From: an uncultured Candidatus Actinomarina sp.
GTDB lineage: Bacteria; Actinomycetota; Acidimicrobiia; Actinomarinales; Actinomarinaceae
Reading direction: 5' to 3'
NCBI GenBank assembly: GCA_902576605.1
Contig: CACGVI010000007.1
Location: 1 to 46,365 of the forward strand
Length of the DNA stretch: 46,365 nt
The position numbers and the translations under genes are program-made. The notes under the pieces are model-generated. The model searched no databases and was not told the DNA's origin. It was given only the letters and a program-made list of their open reading frames with translations. Of this stretch, positions 28,182 through 36,944 are shown piece by piece (position 1 is the stretch's first letter; each line of letters opens with the position of its first letter).

Positions 28182-28290
28182 AAAATAATTATATTGACTT
28201 AGTTTATGAGTTGAAACCTAATTCGTAACAATATGAAAAATAAATGGTGAAACGCCTCTATCTATGGTGTAATACATTTATAATTAACTT

Positions 28291-28325
28291 CAATGTTTAA
28301 AAGGTAACCATTGTAAAAAAACCTT
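28291..28325 (+). promoter_or_regulatory. Candidate H-type pseudoknot riboswitch, preQ1-I-like, upstream of ecfA1
   Basis: P1 CAATG/CATTG (28291-95/28309-13), P2 AAGGT/ACCTT (28301-05/28321-25), loop AAC, A-rich L3 TAAAAAA; competing AAAACCT/AGGTTTT hairpin (28318-24/28339-45) covers the SD. Confidence 0.55.
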
Positions 28326-28345
28326 ATTAAAAAAAAAGAGGTTTT

Positions 28346-29176
28346 GTGTCTGTAATAAAAATAGAAAATCTTACTGTCCAGTATCTAGGTGAAGAAACAA
28401 ATGCATTGGATGGGGTCTCTCTTGAAATTCAAAAAGGAGAGTTTGTTGCTTTGTTAGGCGCACATGGTGCTGGTAAAACAACATTATGTCTTTCATTAAA
28501 TGGCATAGTGCCAAACATGATTAATGCTGATATGTATGGAGCAATAGAAGTATTGGGTGAAGTACCTCCAAAGATCCCTGTAAGGAAACTTGCAACTAAA
28601 GTCGGCAGTATTTTTGACAATCCAGAGTTTCAAATGAGTCAGTTAACAGTTTTTGAAGAAGTGGCTTTAGGACTCCAAAATTTAGGAGTGGAAAAAACTA
28701 CAATAGAAAAAAACATATCAGAATCACTAAAACTTGTTGGCCTAGAAGGGTTTGAGGAAAGGTCTCCATTTGAAATTTCTGGAGGACAACAACAAAGGCT
28801 AGCAATGGCTTCCGCTTTAGCAATGAAGCCAGAAATTTTAATCCTAGATGAACCAACATCTAATCTCGATCCAATTGGAAAAGAAGAAGTATTCTCCGTT
28901 ACAAGAAGCTTAAATCAAGAAGAAGGATTAACAGTAATAATTGCTGAACACGAAGTAGAAGTTATTGCAGAATTTGCTGACACTTTAGTCCTCCTAGACG
29001 AGGGAAGGGTTAACGAAGTAGGAACTCCGCAGGATATATTTCCAAGATTTGTCGATCACCAAGAAGATATTGGCGTAAGGGTTCCACAAGTGACAGATCT
29101 AGCTTCAAGAAAAACCAAAAATTTTAGTTCAATTCCTGTTACCTTAGATGAGTCAGTTGAGATGTATAAAAAATGA
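28346..29176 (+). CDS. ECF transporter ATPase A1 (GTG start)
   Basis: Walker A GAHGAGKTTL, ISGGQQQRLAMA, LILDEPTSNLDP. Confidence 0.9.
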   Translation: MSVIKIENLTVQYLGEETNALDGVSLEIQKGEFVALLGAHGAGKTTLCLSLNGIVPNMINADMYGAIEVLGEVPPKIPVRKLATKVGSIFDNPEFQMSQLTVFEEVALGLQNLGVEKTTIEKNISESLKLVGLEGFEERSPFEISGGQQQRLAMASALAMKPEILILDEPTSNLDPIGKEEVFSVTRSLNQEEGLTVIIAEHEVEVIAEFADTLVLLDEGRVNEVGTPQDIFPRFVDHQEDIGVRVPQVTDLASRKTKNFSSIPVTLDESVEMYKK

Positions 29177-29976
29177 CAAAAATTAAAGTATCTAACTTGC
29201 AACATAAATATCCAAATGGCGTAGTTGCCGTAAGCAATGTAAATGTTGAAATTGAACAAGGCGAACAAGTATCTGTTGTAGGACAAAATGGTTCTGGAAA
29301 AACCACATTAGTTAAACATTGGAACGGCTTATTAAAACCTACTAAGGGAAATGTTTTTGTTGGAGAACTAGATACTCTAGATCATTCTGTAAACACTCTT
29401 GCAAGAAAAGTAGGTTATGTATTTCAAAATCCAAACCATCAAATTTTTGCGGCTTCTGTAAGAGACGAGCTAGAGTTTGGTTTAATCAATATTGGATTAG
29501 ACGAGGAGGAAGTAAGCAACAGGACTAACCGTATTGCTGAAGAATTTGGACTAGTTGATTATTTAGAGACAAATCCATACAGGTTAGGATTTTCATTAAG
29601 AAAAACGGTTGGAATGGCATCAATAATTGCAATGGAGCCAGACGTTGTTGTTCTTGATGAACCAACAACGGGTCAAGATTATCTTGGAATAAAAGCAATT
29701 AGAACTGCAATAAAAAAATTAAAAGAACAAGGTAAAACAGTAATAGTGGTTTCTCATGACATGCCACTTGTTGCAGAAGATACAGACAGAGTTTTAGTAA
29801 TGTGTGACACAGAATTAATTTTTGATGGAACACCATCCAGGCTTTTTGCAAGTAAGGAGATACTATCCAAAACAAATCTTCTACCACCGCAAATTACTAG
29901 TTTTACACAAAAAGTTGGTTTAAATATTGAAGGCGAAAGTGTGCTATCTGTTGAAGAAGCGGAGAAAGCCCTCTAA
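29173..29976 (+). CDS. ECF transporter ATPase A2 with degenerate signature motif
   Basis: Walker A GQNGSGKTTL, VVLDEPTTGQD; signature position reads LGFSLRKTVGMA. Confidence 0.88.
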   Translation: MTKIKVSNLQHKYPNGVVAVSNVNVEIEQGEQVSVVGQNGSGKTTLVKHWNGLLKPTKGNVFVGELDTLDHSVNTLARKVGYVFQNPNHQIFAASVRDELEFGLINIGLDEEEVSNRTNRIAEEFGLVDYLETNPYRLGFSLRKTVGMASIIAMEPDVVVLDEPTTGQDYLGIKAIRTAIKKLKEQGKTVIVVSHDMPLVAEDTDRVLVMCDTELIFDGTPSRLFASKEILSKTNLLPPQITSFTQKVGLNIEGESVLSVEEAEKAL

Positions 29977-30061: not shown

Positions 30062-30099
30062 TAACAATGTTCATTGGGCTCATTGTTAAAAAACCCAAT
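30062..30099 (+). promoter_or_regulatory. Candidate second H-type pseudoknot upstream of the ECF S component
   Basis: P1 TAACAATG/CATTGTTA (30062-69/30081-88), P2 ATTGGG/CCCAAT (30073-78/30094-99), A-rich L3. Confidence 0.55.
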
Positions 30100-30103
30100 C
30101 AAC

Positions 30104-30124
30104 GCTAATAATTAATTTATTAGC
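30104..30124 (+). promoter_or_regulatory. Perfect 8-bp hairpin between pseudoknot and RBS
   Basis: GCTAATAA-TTAAT-TTATTAGC. Confidence 0.6.
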
Positions 30125-30153
30125 ATTGTAATTTCTTTCGAGGGGGAGATTAG

Positions 30154-30846
30154 ATGAACGAACAAGCCACTCAAGGCGAAAAACTAAGTAGCTCTACTGG
30201 CGGTGGAGTTCCTTTAACATATGTTATTGCATTAGTACCTGTTGCTTCTGTTTTGAATGTTATTGGTGGAACTGTCGCTGGAGCTTTGAAGCTACCTATC
30301 TTCTTGGACATGATTGGAACAGCAGTTGTTGCTATGACAATTGGTCCTTGGTGGGGAGCATTAGTTGGAGTGATCACAAACCTAACAATGGGCTTTTTAA
30401 CAGGTCCAGTTTCAATTCCATTCGCAGCATGCAACGTAGTTGGTGCTTTGGTATGGGGTTATGGAACAAGATGGGGCTTTGCTAATGATAAACTAAGATT
30501 CTTTGGTTTGTCTGTAGCATCAGCAGTCTTTGTATCACTAATGGCAGCACCAATTGTTATATTTGTTTTTGGTGGAGCCACAGGACATGCTTCAGATGTT
30601 TTAACAGCTGGATTATTAGCAGCTGGAAATGACATGTGGGCAGCAGTGTTTTCAAGTAACATTATTGTTTCTTCAGCTGATAAAATTCTTTCGTCATTCT
30701 TGGCGTTAGCAATTATTGGAGCATTACCTACAAACTTGCAGGTAACAGGTCCAATAATGAAAGCTGAAAATATGGGCACAGCAGTCTTAATAACAGCAGG
30801 TACAGTAGTAGGTGTAATTCTTACTGTTGTATCAATGAACTTGTAG
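30154..30846 (+). CDS. ECF transporter S (substrate-binding) component, specificity unknown
   Basis: Multi-TM; FLDMIGTAVVAMTIGPWWGALVGVITNL; strong RBS gaggggga; between ECF ATPases and EcfT. Confidence 0.78.
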   Translation: MNEQATQGEKLSSSTGGGVPLTYVIALVPVASVLNVIGGTVAGALKLPIFLDMIGTAVVAMTIGPWWGALVGVITNLTMGFLTGPVSIPFAACNVVGALVWGYGTRWGFANDKLRFFGLSVASAVFVSLMAAPIVIFVFGGATGHASDVLTAGLLAAGNDMWAAVFSSNIIVSSADKILSSFLALAIIGALPTNLQVTGPIMKAENMGTAVLITAGTVVGVILTVVSMNL

Positions 30847-30859
30847 ATAGGAGGATAGT

Positions 30860-31048
30860 ATGAGAGAAGTAACATCAAAAGATGGTCTTGGTGTTGGTAT
30901 TATCGGCCTAGGTGTAATGTATGCAATTTATCCATGGGCATCTTCTGAAATGGCAGGAGACGCAGCCTTTGGTATGTTGTCAGGGTTATGCTTAGTTGCA
31001 AGTTTACTTACAGTACTCTGTGGGTTAGCTGTCCTAAGAGCAAAATAA
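30860..31048 (+). CDS. 62-aa two-TM protein in ECF operon
   Basis: AGGAGG RBS, two hydrophobic segments, tight operon spacing. Confidence 0.65.
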   Translation: MREVTSKDGLGVGIIGLGVMYAIYPWASSEMAGDAAFGMLSGLCLVASLLTVLCGLAVLRAK

Positions 31049-31060
31049 GTCCAAAAGTAA

Positions 31061-31804
31061 ATGGAAGCTGTTCAGAAAATTGAACAAGTTAAACATTTAC
31101 CTATAAAATTTGGAGAAGTCGCCCGGTACGTAATAGTGCCGGGCGATCCCAATAGGGTCCCTGTTATAGCTGAGTCTCTTGAAAATGTAATCAACCAGGG
31201 ACAAAATAGAGAATTTAATGCATATAAAGGTACGTATAAGGGTATTGACGTATCTGTTGTATCAACTGGAATTGGGTGTCCATCTACAGCAATTGCTGTA
31301 GAAGAGTTATCTCACATTGGTGCTGAAGTATTTATTAGGATTGGGACGTCTGGATCTGTTGATAAATCAGCAAAAAAAGGAGATATTTTTATTGCTACAG
31401 CAGCTGTTAGAGATGATGGAACATCAAAGCAGTACATACCAATTGAATTTCCAGCAATAGCATCACACAATGTTGTTAGCAGTTTAATTAAAGCTTCAAA
31501 AGATTTAAATATTGATTCAAAAGTCGGAATATGTCAATCAAAAGACTCTTTTTTTGGAGAAACAGAACCAGACAGAATGCCTGTCGCTCCATACTTAGAT
31601 TTCAAATGGAAGTCGTGGCAAGAAGGGGGCGTTGGTGCTTCTGAAATGGAAGCTGCAACCTTATTCACTTTATCACAAATTAAAAGAATAGAAGCCGGAG
31701 CAATTTTAGCAATAGAAACATCAGATAAAGAAACGATAAAGAAGATGACAGAAATAGTTTTAGAGAGTATAACTTATATTGAAGGGGAAAGAAATGTCAG
31801 CTAA
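31061..31804 (+). CDS. Uridine phosphorylase-like (NP-I family) nucleoside phosphorylase 1
   Basis: YVIVPGDPNRVP, STGIGCPSTAIAVEEL, RIGTSGS, SEMEAATLF. Confidence 0.9.
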   Translation: MEAVQKIEQVKHLPIKFGEVARYVIVPGDPNRVPVIAESLENVINQGQNREFNAYKGTYKGIDVSVVSTGIGCPSTAIAVEELSHIGAEVFIRIGTSGSVDKSAKKGDIFIATAAVRDDGTSKQYIPIEFPAIASHNVVSSLIKASKDLNIDSKVGICQSKDSFFGETEPDRMPVAPYLDFKWKSWQEGGVGASEMEAATLFTLSQIKRIEAGAILAIETSDKETIKKMTEIVLESITYIEGERNVS

Positions 31805-32585
31805 TGAAGAAAAAACAAAATCAGGATTACTAGACGTAGACCTTCAATATCATGTCCAACTAAAAACTGGAGATGTATCAGACTTTGTAATATTACCCGG
31901 TGATCCAGGAAGGGTCGAATTTATAGCTGAGCACTTTGACTCGGCAACACTAGTAGCAGATAATAGAGAATACAAAACTATGACCGGTGTTTATAAGGGT
32001 CGCTCTGTTTCTGTAACATCAACCGGAATTGGATGTCCATCAACTGCGATCGCTGTAGAAGAATTAGCAAACGTAGGTGCAAAAACATTTGTGAGACTTG
32101 GAACTTCAGGAGCTATGCAAGAATACACGCGAGTAGGAGATAAAGTTATAGCAACAGGTGCTGTCAGATATGAAGGTACATCAGTGCAATACATGCCTAT
32201 AGAATTTCCGGCAGTGGCTTCGCATGATATGGTTTCCGCGTTAATTCAATCAGCAAATGAAGCCGAATTAAATCACCATATAGGGATTGTGCAGTCAAAA
32301 GATTCATTCTACGGACAACACAATCCGGAAGGAATGCCTATCGCCTCAGAATTGCTTCAAAAATGGGACGCATGGGTTAAAGGAGGAGTTCTCTGCTCAG
32401 AAATGGAAGCTGCAACATTATTTGTAGTCGGCTCTTATAGAAAATTAAGGACAGGAGCAGTTCTTTTAGTTGCTGGAGACCAAGCCAAACAAGAATCTTT
32501 AACGAAAGAAGAATACAAAGCAAATATGACAGAATCAATTAATATGATACTTGAATCAAGTTTACAAATTGAGGAAGGTTCATAA
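31794..32585 (+). CDS. Uridine phosphorylase-like (NP-I family) nucleoside phosphorylase 2 (start moved from 31779)
   Basis: FVILPGDPGRVE, STGIGCPSTAIAVEEL, RLGTSGA, SEMEAATLF; GGGGA RBS before ATG at 31794. Confidence 0.9.
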   Translation: MSANEEKTKSGLLDVDLQYHVQLKTGDVSDFVILPGDPGRVEFIAEHFDSATLVADNREYKTMTGVYKGRSVSVTSTGIGCPSTAIAVEELANVGAKTFVRLGTSGAMQEYTRVGDKVIATGAVRYEGTSVQYMPIEFPAVASHDMVSALIQSANEAELNHHIGIVQSKDSFYGQHNPEGMPIASELLQKWDAWVKGGVLCSEMEAATLFVVGSYRKLRTGAVLLVAGDQAKQESLTKEEYKANMTESINMILESSLQIEEGS

Positions 32586-33484
32586 TGGCAAGAGTACCAG
32601 TTGGAGCATACGTTCCAGGCGATTCTTTCTTTCACAGAGCTCATCCGTTTGTAAAGTTTTACTGGGTTGGCTCATTTGTAATATTTTGTTTTTTTAACAA
32701 AAATCCCTATGTGAATTATTCGCTAACTTTAATTGGTTTAGTATTCGTTGTTCTTACAAAAACTTTTCCAAGTTATGTAAGAGCTATGGTTATTTTCTTT
32801 CCTGCGGCATTTGCAATGATATTTCTTCAATCGATTGTCCCTCCAGCAGTATTCGATAATCCAGAACTATTAGCAGAACTTGGCCCCTTTTCTTTGTACA
32901 CTGAGTCAATTATTTATGGGATGCTTTTTAGTAGTCGCATTTTATGCATATGTACATGGTCTATATTAATGTTGATGACTTTACATCCTGGAGAATTGTC
33001 TTCAGCGTTACAAAAAGCTCGTGTACCCTATACAGTAAATTTCATGATAACAACAACTTTGCAACTAATCCCTATTCTTCAAAGAGAATTTGGAATTATT
33101 TTATCTGCACAAAAATCAAGAGCAATGGAAGCTCAAGGATTTAAAGCTTTGTTACCATCAATAATTCCAGTTTTTGCTGGAGCAATCGATAGGGTCTCTC
33201 AACTATCTATGAGTCTAGAAACGAGAGCTTTCGGCGCTAACAAAGAAAGAACACTATTGAGGTATAAAGAATTTACGACAAAAGAAACAGTATTGTCAAT
33301 TCTTTCTCTAGCACCAATTGTTCTTGTATTTTATGGAAGGGCAAACTTTAATGCATTTGTGCCATTGGAAGGGTTTTCATTATCTCCTTTTGCTGGTTCT
33401 TTCATTGTAATTTTTTGTGGTACAGCATTTTTATCTATAATTTTCGGTGCAACTTTTGCCATAAGGCTTCTTGGTAAGAAGTAG
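32585..33484 (+). CDS. ecfT: ECF transporter transmembrane protein EcfT
   Basis: Multi-TM; AQKSRAMEAQG and SLETRAFGA coupling motifs. Confidence 0.88.
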   Translation: MARVPVGAYVPGDSFFHRAHPFVKFYWVGSFVIFCFFNKNPYVNYSLTLIGLVFVVLTKTFPSYVRAMVIFFPAAFAMIFLQSIVPPAVFDNPELLAELGPFSLYTESIIYGMLFSSRILCICTWSILMLMTLHPGELSSALQKARVPYTVNFMITTTLQLIPILQREFGIILSAQKSRAMEAQGFKALLPSIIPVFAGAIDRVSQLSMSLETRAFGANKERTLLRYKEFTTKETVLSILSLAPIVLVFYGRANFNAFVPLEGFSLSPFAGSFIVIFCGTAFLSIIFGATFAIRLLGKK

Positions 33485-34770: not shown

Positions 34771-35039
34771 TTTCTCCCTTTGTATAAAAAAGCAAGACCA
34801 GCAATTAGAAGAATTACAGAAAGATATAAATAAACACCGAATACCGACCCAACTGCTGCAATCGTAACTAACCCAAACCCTGTTCTCTGATCATTGTTGT
34901 AAGAGGGTAAGTAATAAAAAATTTTGTTTAAGATGTGATTTTTATCTTTTATCCTTTTTTCATCTATCCAAAATACAATAAAAATAATCACAAATGTTGC
35001 CAACAAAATGAGCTGTTCTCTTAAGGGTAAAACAACCAT
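34767..35039 (-). CDS. Small membrane protein
   Basis: 90 aa, hydrophobic segments. Confidence 0.5.
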   Translation of the reverse strand: MVVLPLREQLILLATFVIIFIVFWIDEKRIKDKNHILNKIFYYLPSYNNDQRTGFGLVTIAAVGSVFGVYLYLSVILLIAGLAFLYKGRN

Positions 35040-35914
35040 TATATTGAATATGAAGACTGGGTGCCAGGTCTAGTCACAGAATCAGAAGCTTTTTCAACAC
35101 CAATTTTTATTGCCTCTTTAGTTGTATATCCTGATGCTATTCCGTATGAAAAGGCACCAACAAAAGCATCTCCGGCACCTGTAGTATCAATGGCATTAAC
35201 TTCTGGAGCTTTAATCTTTATCACAGAACCTTCTTTATTGACATAGGCAGCTCCTTCTTCACCGAGTGTAACAATTAAATTTGATTCAATAGAATTAGAG
35301 TACTTAATTAAATTTGAATCATCAAATGCATTTAATCCTGAAATAGTTTCGAATTCTACCTCATTTGGGATAAACCAATCTGTAGAGTCTAAAAGAATTT
35401 GTGATGGGATTTTTGCCGGTGCTGGATTTAAAATTGTTGTAATGCTGTTGGCCTTGGCATACTGAAAAACTTTTTCAGTTACTTCAAGTGGAATTTCAAA
35501 TTGTCCAATTATGACCTCTAAATCTTCTATTTTTTTTATAGCTTCTATTGCATCATCACCATTAATTAAATCATTTGCACCAGACACAACAATAATCCTG
35601 TTTTGCCCTGAGCCATCAACCCATATTGGAGCAACCCCACTTGATCCAGGCACTCTTTGAATAAAGTCAACATTAACGCCGCTTTTTTTATAATTATCTA
35701 TAGTCATATCTGCATACACATCATCACCTAAGCAGGTTATCATATATGTTTCAGCGCCCATAAGCCCTGCCATAACGGCTTGATTTGCTCCCTTCCCGCC
35801 AAAACCCATTTTGTATTCATTTCCAAAAACAGTTTCGCCGTCAGATGGGATACTATTTACATAAGCAATTTGATCAATATTAGAGCTACCAACGATACAG
35901 ATTTTTGAAGCCAT
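35039..35914 (-). CDS. PfkB/ribokinase family kinase (start moved from 36031)
   Basis: MASKICIVGSSNIDQIAYV, GFGGKGANQAV, DTTGAGDAFVGAF. Confidence 0.9.
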   Translation of the reverse strand: MASKICIVGSSNIDQIAYVNSIPSDGETVFGNEYKMGFGGKGANQAVMAGLMGAETYMITCLGDDVYADMTIDNYKKSGVNVDFIQRVPGSSGVAPIWVDGSGQNRIIVVSGANDLINGDDAIEAIKKIEDLEVIIGQFEIPLEVTEKVFQYAKANSITTILNPAPAKIPSQILLDSTDWFIPNEVEFETISGLNAFDDSNLIKYSNSIESNLIVTLGEEGAAYVNKEGSVIKIKAPEVNAIDTTGAGDAFVGAFSYGIASGYTTKEAIKIGVEKASDSVTRPGTQSSYSI

Positions 35915-35963
35915 GCAAGAATTATAAAAATATTTTATTGTTTTATCTACTATGATTTGATTT

Positions 35964-36944
35964 ATGGGTATTAATTGGGAGTCAAAAGTTTTGAGCTCGG
36001 TAGGGAATGTTATTGACAATGCACAACACATATCAGTGAGCGAAAAACATATAGAAACAGTTGCTGATTGGTTAGCATATGAAGAGTTTGGATTTCCTAA
36101 AAATAATCAAACAAATAAAAATCCGGAAAATTTTATTCGAACAACAATGCTTATTAATACTTTAAACTTTGCGTTTACTGATTTTGACACTTCAATTAAG
36201 TATGCAATAGAGCGAGATGGCCATGTACTTTCAGACAGTGAAGCCATGTTTGCCCAAGTACATGAAGCAATAGATTCTGGAATTAACCTGCTTAATGGTG
36301 AAGTACTAGAAAAATTAACAATTGAAGAACTAGAAAAAATTTTCGAAGGAAATATTGAAATGCCAATGTTAAAAGAAAGAGTAGAAATATTAAATGCTGT
36401 AGGAACAAAACTTGTAGATAGCTATGAAGGGGATTGGTTAAACTTTATAAAAAGTTGCCCACGAAAACTTTATTCAAATGGTGAGGGGTTAATTGAAAGA
36501 TTAGTTTTAGAGTTTCCAAGATTCAATGATTCTTCGATTTATTTAGATAAAGAGGTAAATTTTTACAAATTAGCACAACTAGCATTCTGGGGTATTCATG
36601 GTGAACTTGCTCACTCAAATTACTTTAGAATTGAAGACATGGAATCTATGACAGCATTTGCAGACTATATTGTACCGGTTGCCCTTATTGTCATGAAAAT
36701 AACTCAATATTCAGAAGAGTTAGAAGAAAAAATTATGAATGGAAAAATGATAGAAAGAAACTCAACTGAAGAAATTGAGATACGTGCAGCTACAATATAT
36801 GCAACAGCAAAACTTACTGAGAGTGTGAACAGAAGAAGAAAAGATATCCAAAGTTTAATAATACCCCAACTTGATTACAGACTTTGGAAGCATTACCATG
36901 CAACACATTTTCCTCATCATTTAACCTACACAACAATGTATTAA
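35964..36944 (+). CDS. Queuosine salvage glycosylase, Qng1/DUF2419 family
   Basis: MPMLKERVEILNAVG, LVLEFPRFNDSSIY, VNFYKLAQLAFWGIHG, MTAFADYIVPVAL, EIEIRAATIYA, LDYRLWKHYHATHFPHHLT. Confidence 0.82.
   Translation: MGINWESKVLSSVGNVIDNAQHISVSEKHIETVADWLAYEEFGFPKNNQTNKNPENFIRTTMLINTLNFAFTDFDTSIKYAIERDGHVLSDSEAMFAQVHEAIDSGINLLNGEVLEKLTIEELEKIFEGNIEMPMLKERVEILNAVGTKLVDSYEGDWLNFIKSCPRKLYSNGEGLIERLVLEFPRFNDSSIYLDKEVNFYKLAQLAFWGIHGELAHSNYFRIEDMESMTAFADYIVPVALIVMKITQYSEELEEKIMNGKMIERNSTEEIEIRAATIYATAKLTESVNRRRKDIQSLIIPQLDYRLWKHYHATHFPHHLTYTTMY

Follow-up and report, generated by a model that had tools for sequence, protein, structure and literature searches.

Gene content of the locus

Analysis of the window, by which we mean the whole stretch of 46,365 nt, showed an ECF transporter operon in the order ecfA1, ecfA2, S component, a 62-aa small protein, two uridine-phosphorylase-like proteins and EcfT, followed by an MFS protein (Table 1). 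Downstream of the MFS gene lie an oppositely oriented ribokinase-like gene, a Qng1-like gene and then a RihC-like nucleoside hydrolase gene. The upstream uridine-phosphorylase-like gene (31061–31804) is confined to loci with ECF genes. The downstream one (31779–32585) is retained at the locus even in genomes without ECF genes, where it is the single gene of its kind, alongside the ribokinase-like gene and Qng1. The upstream protein has FGETEP and its neighbour YGQHNP, a change that presumably sits close to the Gln with which uridine phosphorylases bind the base. Comparison of the S component with solved QueT and QrtT produced no match, the closest being weak folate-type S components, and none was found in the viral contigs searched for it.

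Table 1. Features of the operon and its leaders in window coordinates. R1 is the covariance model described in the text.
Feature	Position	Strand	Details
Copy 1 pseudoknot	28291..28325	+	In ecfA1 leader; R1 54.2 bits
Copy 1 P1	28291-28295 / 28309-28313		
Copy 1 P2	28301-28304 / 28322-28325		AAGG / CCTT
Copy 1 L2	28305-28308		TAAC; specificity position C28308
Copy 1 L3	28314-28321		
Anti-SD hairpin, ecfA1 leader (predicted)	28318..28345	+	AAAACCUU (28318-28325) with SD region (28337-28345); RNA folding
ecfA1, ECF transporter ATPase	28346..29176	+	TIGR04520 223 bits, below cut-off; PF00005
ecfA2, ECF transporter ATPase	29173..29976	+	TIGR04521 234 bits, below cut-off; PF00005
Copy 2 pseudoknot	30063..30099	+	In S-component leader; R1 42.9 bits
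Copy 2 P1	30065-30069 / 30081-30085		CAATG / CATTG; 7 bp (30063-30069 / 30081-30087) if AACAATG/CATTGTT is counted
Copy 2 P2	30073-30078 / 30094-30099		ATTGGG / CCCAAT
Copy 2 loops			L2 CU (2 nt); specificity position U30080; L3 UUAAAAAA
Hairpin between copy 2 and SD	30100..30128	+	G001: same place, unrelated sequence
Local SD hairpin	30129..30152	+	Pairs GGGGGAG SD with UAAUUUCUUU; similar SD hairpin in G001
ECF S component (substrate binding), CD3073-like	30154..30846	+	NF045596 114.7 bits, cut-off 180; PF12822 weak
62-aa small protein	30860..31048	+	No family match
Uridine-phosphorylase-like protein	31061..31804	+	PF01048; TIGR01718 below cut-off
Uridine phosphorylase family protein	31779..32585	+	TIGR01718 above cut-off
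EcfT, CbiQ-like transmembrane component	32585..33484	+	PF02361
PfkB/ribokinase-like kinase	35039..36031	-	PF00294; TIGR02152 288 bits, below 299.65-bit cut-off
Qng1-like queuosine nucleotide N-glycosylase	35964..36944	+	PF10343 Q_salvage 184 bits

Two leader pseudoknots with covarying helices

The initial annotation had described two pseudoknots in one operon, with a different base before the P1 3′ strand in each, and had argued that such a two-copy design would hardly arise by chance. They lie in the leaders of ecfA1 (copy 1) and the S component (copy 2), and both are of the H-type. Re-reading of the sequence confirmed the coordinates and pairings of both copies, as well as the U in copy 2 where copy 1 has C. 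A descriptor requiring a 5-bp P1 ending in G-C, UU after P1, an A-rich L3 and a P2 of at least 4 bp matched copy 1 and copy 2 only, on both strands of the window, whereas dinucleotide-shuffled windows gave a mean of 0.04 matches each. Together with covariation and a location restricted to the operon, this bears out the argument against chance.

Covariation was assessed in an alignment of nine canonical units. Across P1 and P2, 91.4% of cells were paired, with 11 double-change cells. Double changes in P1 were from A-U to G-C at two pairs; in P2, one pair occurred as A-U, U-G and U-A, and another changed from A-U to G-C. None of 500 shuffles equalled the real alignment in percentage paired, in double-change cells or in score, though the test is optimistic, as the sequences are related and the alignment is small. 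Paired fractions dropped to 6–57% when the registers were slid. Both helices covary, in agreement with the covarying P2 and conserved architecture proposed earlier. Between the window and the near-identical genome G064, copy 2 differed at 2 of 38 positions, one being a pair-preserving A-U to G-U change, and its flank at 8 of 86; over this short distance, the pseudoknot is at most mildly better kept than its flank.

A TATAAT occurs at 28279–28284, 6 nt upstream of copy 1, so that the transcript might start at the P1 5′ strand. In a related genome, G061, TATAAT abuts P1, and the same start site would not fit there. A sigma-70 scan called no promoter upstream of copy 1.

Distribution among relatives

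A covariance model, R1, was built from 13 pseudoknot units. Among 42 Ca. Actinomarina genomes, it gave 11 matches at 41–54 bits, in four genomes, and every one of these lay in the ecfA1 or S-component leader of the ECF operon, which is the enrichment before ECF and nucleoside salvage genes that the initial annotation had anticipated. As R1 was built from the same units, their scores are high by construction, and the informative part is that no comparable matches occurred elsewhere. A twelfth match (24.6 bits), at noise level, was coding; the weaker matches in G030 and G060 (24–25 bits), within or overlapping coding sequence, were rejected, and a pattern match at L104 was also coding. R1 scans of 345 genomes of the class and 397 of the phylum yielded nothing additional above 25.1 bits, the phylum scan giving three matches at 24–25 bits. 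Rfam gave no relevant match at gathering score over the window, or at E ≤ 10 around the leaders. The PreQ1 model itself, RF00522, found nothing in the window region even at E ≤ 10, and its best unit score was 11.9 bits (G061 unit 4). The elements escape Rfam's model.

Upstream sequences were read at six homologous loci (L007–L012). The motif precedes both ecfA1 and the S component in G064 (L007), G001 (L008) and G061 (L012). In MED870 (L010), the contig begins near the S gene, and three tandem units precede the S component (L010:117–225); G061 has four in the same position (L012:5822–5962). Units after the first (2–4 in G061, 2–3 in MED870) keep P1 and the pocket residues, with P2 weak or changed. 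At L009 and L011, the orthologous operon is present and the motif is absent. The G001 operon is on a 4-kb contig (C23) with a coverage of 0.65, and a different contig of that assembly holds a Qng1 locus with no ECF genes; this operon may therefore come from another strain.

Two viral contigs have in common a conserved intergenic segment of about 650 nt (L099:3340–4010 and L100:1480–2170, both on the minus strand), for which no Rfam match was found. The segment, which may be a large unannotated phage RNA, holds UGAUGUUUCGGUAAGGUAACCAUCGUAAAAAAACCUU, the same pseudoknot, at 31 bits with R1 and without comparable gene context.

Predicted control of SD accessibility

In the ecfA1 leader, RNA folding predicted a hairpin between the P2 3′ strand and the SD region (Table 1). 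Since this hairpin uses the P2 3′ strand, P2 would be excluded when it forms. Locking the aptamer raised the unpaired probability of the window SD from 0.21 in the free leader to 0.87. The direction was the same in all four ecfA1 leaders (0.21 to 0.87, 0.28 to 0.80, 0.66 to 0.82 and 0.29 to 0.51), though blocking bases can only cut competing pairs, and the shift is a prediction, not proof. The P2 3′ strand is able to pair with the SD in all four (CCUU or CCUG type). Folding thus predicts ligand-ON control in the ecfA1 leader, the opposite of known preQ1 switches, which are described as OFF switches.

Locking had no predicted effect on the S-component SD of the window (0.33/0.34), G064 (0.34/0.34) or G001 (0.38/0.38); the SD of these leaders sits in its own hairpin. 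For the last unit of G061, the unpaired probability of the SD increased from 0.39 to 0.86. Between copy 2 and the SD, bases 30100–30111 pair with 30117–30128, as a perfect 12 bp in G064 and with one C·A mismatch in the window. The 8-bp hairpin noted earlier at 30104–30124 is real. The CATTGT at 30124–30129, which had been put forward as a competitor for P1, fits better as the 3′ strand of the longer hairpin. It is not in G001 or other leaders, and the alternative pairing is kept only in the near-identical relative.

The putative ligand pocket and the U variant

The ligand of class I preQ1 riboswitches pairs with a C that precedes the P1 3′ strand and is strictly conserved; the L1 U and L3 A contact the ligand above a G-C floor (PMC11625349). 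All 13 units have the P1 floor G-C, the L1 U and the last L3 A, and an L3 of 8–9 nt with 6–8 A. Eleven of the 13 have the specificity C, and the P2 ceiling G-C likewise occurs in 11. Copy 1 has the cytosine expected of preQ1-I; copy 2 of the window and of G064 do not, and these are the only units with U, each with a 2-nt L2 (CU and AU, respectively). The S-component leaders of the other informative relatives retain C. Three of the four G061 units and one MED870 unit combine a 2-nt L2 with C, so a short L2 by itself need not abolish binding.

A difference in ligand preference between the copies had been suggested from this position. The substitution itself stands; the altered preference is less secure, as U is limited to the window and its near-identical relative and accompanies a shortened L2. 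With U rare and the 2-nt L2 alongside it, copy 2 may just as well have lost ligand control as gained a new ligand. It would then either recognise a different ligand, one resembling adenine, or persist as a structural remnant independent of ligand.

Queuosine physiology of the genus

TGT was found in 39 of the 42 genus genomes, QueA also in 39, and QueF in three. For QueC, the 42 genomes gave only partial matches, none above 42 bits and each confined to a short N-terminal part of a mostly longer protein; we read these proteins as other ATP pyrophosphatases. With TGT and QueA present, no QueC and mostly no QueF, the genus must import a queuosine precursor (preQ1 or related). QPTR (PF02592) was detected in six genomes, all of them lacking the ECF operon; five have it about 3 kb or less from Qng1 (neighbourhoods L079–L083). 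Mutual exclusion of ECF and QPTR is suggestive only, as six and six of 42 genomes would show no overlap with a probability of about 0.37 by chance. The pseudoknots lie in leaders of an ECF operon that adjoins Qng1, in a genus that is presumed to import a Q precursor; the probable role of this operon is uptake of a queuosine precursor or nucleoside that feeds tRNA modification.

Interpretation and alternatives

We lean, with some reserve, towards the reading that the leaders carry H-type pseudoknot aptamers working like class I preQ1 riboswitches, in a divergent form. We treat the pseudoknots as preQ1-I-like, short of proven membership in the class. This reading draws on the retained pocket residues, the need to import a Q precursor, the adjoining Qng1 and the parallel in C. 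difficile described below, together with covariation, the restriction of R1 matches to the operon and the rise in SD accessibility in all four ecfA1 leaders. From the identity of the residues, a guanine-like queuosine precursor, most likely preQ1, would be sandwiched by the two helices, with the C before the P1 3′ strand as its pairing partner and with the L1 U and the final A of L3 holding it in place. In the ecfA1 leader, as folding suggests, P2 formation would sequester the CCUU anti-SD strand and free the SD, and ligand would thereby turn translation of the transporter operon ON. In the window S-component leader, covariation shows that the pseudoknot has been kept despite the U specificity base and the 2-nt L2.

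Several results count against a preQ1-I-like reading. RF00522 does not match, and the predicted ON control is opposite in sense to the described switches. The P2 3′ strand (CCUU or CCCAAU) is not an SD sequence, as it would be in the translational type, and can pair with the SD in ecfA1 leaders. The S-component SD of three leaders is unchanged on locking, the motif is absent from two orthologous operons, and the phage pseudoknot has no comparable gene context. The S component falls close to CD3073 proteins and away from QrtT/QueT, and its operon also resembles ordinary nucleoside salvage, with uridine phosphorylases, a ribokinase and a RihC-like hydrolase.

The nucleoside phosphorylases and the hydrolase, as well as the failure of RF00522, would also fit a lineage-specific riboswitch that arrived at the same fold independently and senses another nucleobase or nucleoside (guanine, adenine, a pyrimidine nucleoside or queuine), and the U of copy 2 would be expected for an adenine-like ligand. 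Against this, most units retain the preQ1-I pocket residues and the genus needs an imported Q precursor, and we consider it somewhat unlikely. It seems to us unlikely that the elements form a separate lineage-specific type, one that shares the preQ1-I fold, uses the anti-SD strand of P2 for ligand-ON control, can be arranged in tandem and has two copies in one operon tuned by C and U to two nucleobases. The leaders could instead hold ligand-independent cis-elements, acting in mRNA stability, ribosome standby or protein binding and sharing only the H-type fold with an A-rich L3. H-type pseudoknots with the same base motif recur in unrelated RNAs (PMC11625349), and the phage copy, the lack of predicted switching at the S-component SD of three leaders and the two operons without the motif point the same way. 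However, a bare structure needs none of the conserved unpaired L1 U, C before P1′ or last L3 A, and the tandem repetition at two related loci also argues against this explanation, which we regard as improbable. Fortuitous complementarity might be suspected given short helices and an AT-rich genome, but the 0.04 matches expected, the covariation and the exclusive location leave it scarcely credible, and the conservation data already refute it.

Comparison with known systems

If the preQ1-I-like reading is right, preQ1-type sensing would reach into Ca. Actinomarina, a marine actinobacterial genus with reduced genomes. Among the papers found, a Red Sea metatranscriptome study is the only one to mention riboswitches together with Actinomarina. 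As in preQ1-I types II and III (T. tengcongensis, E. coli), the elements are H-type pseudoknots of about 35 nt with P1 closed by G-C, an L1 starting with U, an A-rich L3 ending in the pocket A, and a P2 starting with G-C. Copy 1 has the type III hallmarks of UU after P1 and AC before P1′, and its L2, UAAC, matches the Tte L2. Taken together, the Actinomarina L1 and P2 5′ strand are longer than in preQ1-I, and the P2 3′ strand is CCUU (anti-SD), in contrast to AAGG (SD) in type III. The departures from preQ1-I are thus the anti-SD P2 strand, the tandem arrays and the U variant. The first would make this possibly the first ligand-ON preQ1-I-like member, and the U of copy 2, as a natural specificity-base variant, would offer a test case for ligand change in a small aptamer. 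PreQ1-I has already been reported from Actinomycetota (PMC11625349), and the phylum itself is not new.

In C. difficile, a preQ1-I riboswitch lies upstream of queK-qrtT-queL, which includes genes for a queuosine hydrolase and for the S component of an ECF transporter (PMC11477304). In both systems, a preQ1-type pseudoknot heads an operon for salvage that includes such an S component. Unlike in C. difficile, the S component is CD3073-like and not QrtT, uridine phosphorylases replace QueK/QueL, and one operon has two leaders. PreQ1-I is listed among the classes never found in tandem (PMC9481103). The Actinomarina leaders resemble tandem same-class riboswitches (glycine, c-di-GMP-I and others) in their repeated aptamers per leader, four in G061 and three in MED870. 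They differ in class, being preQ1-I-like, and in the weak or different P2 of the later units, and may be the first tandem preQ1-I-like arrays.
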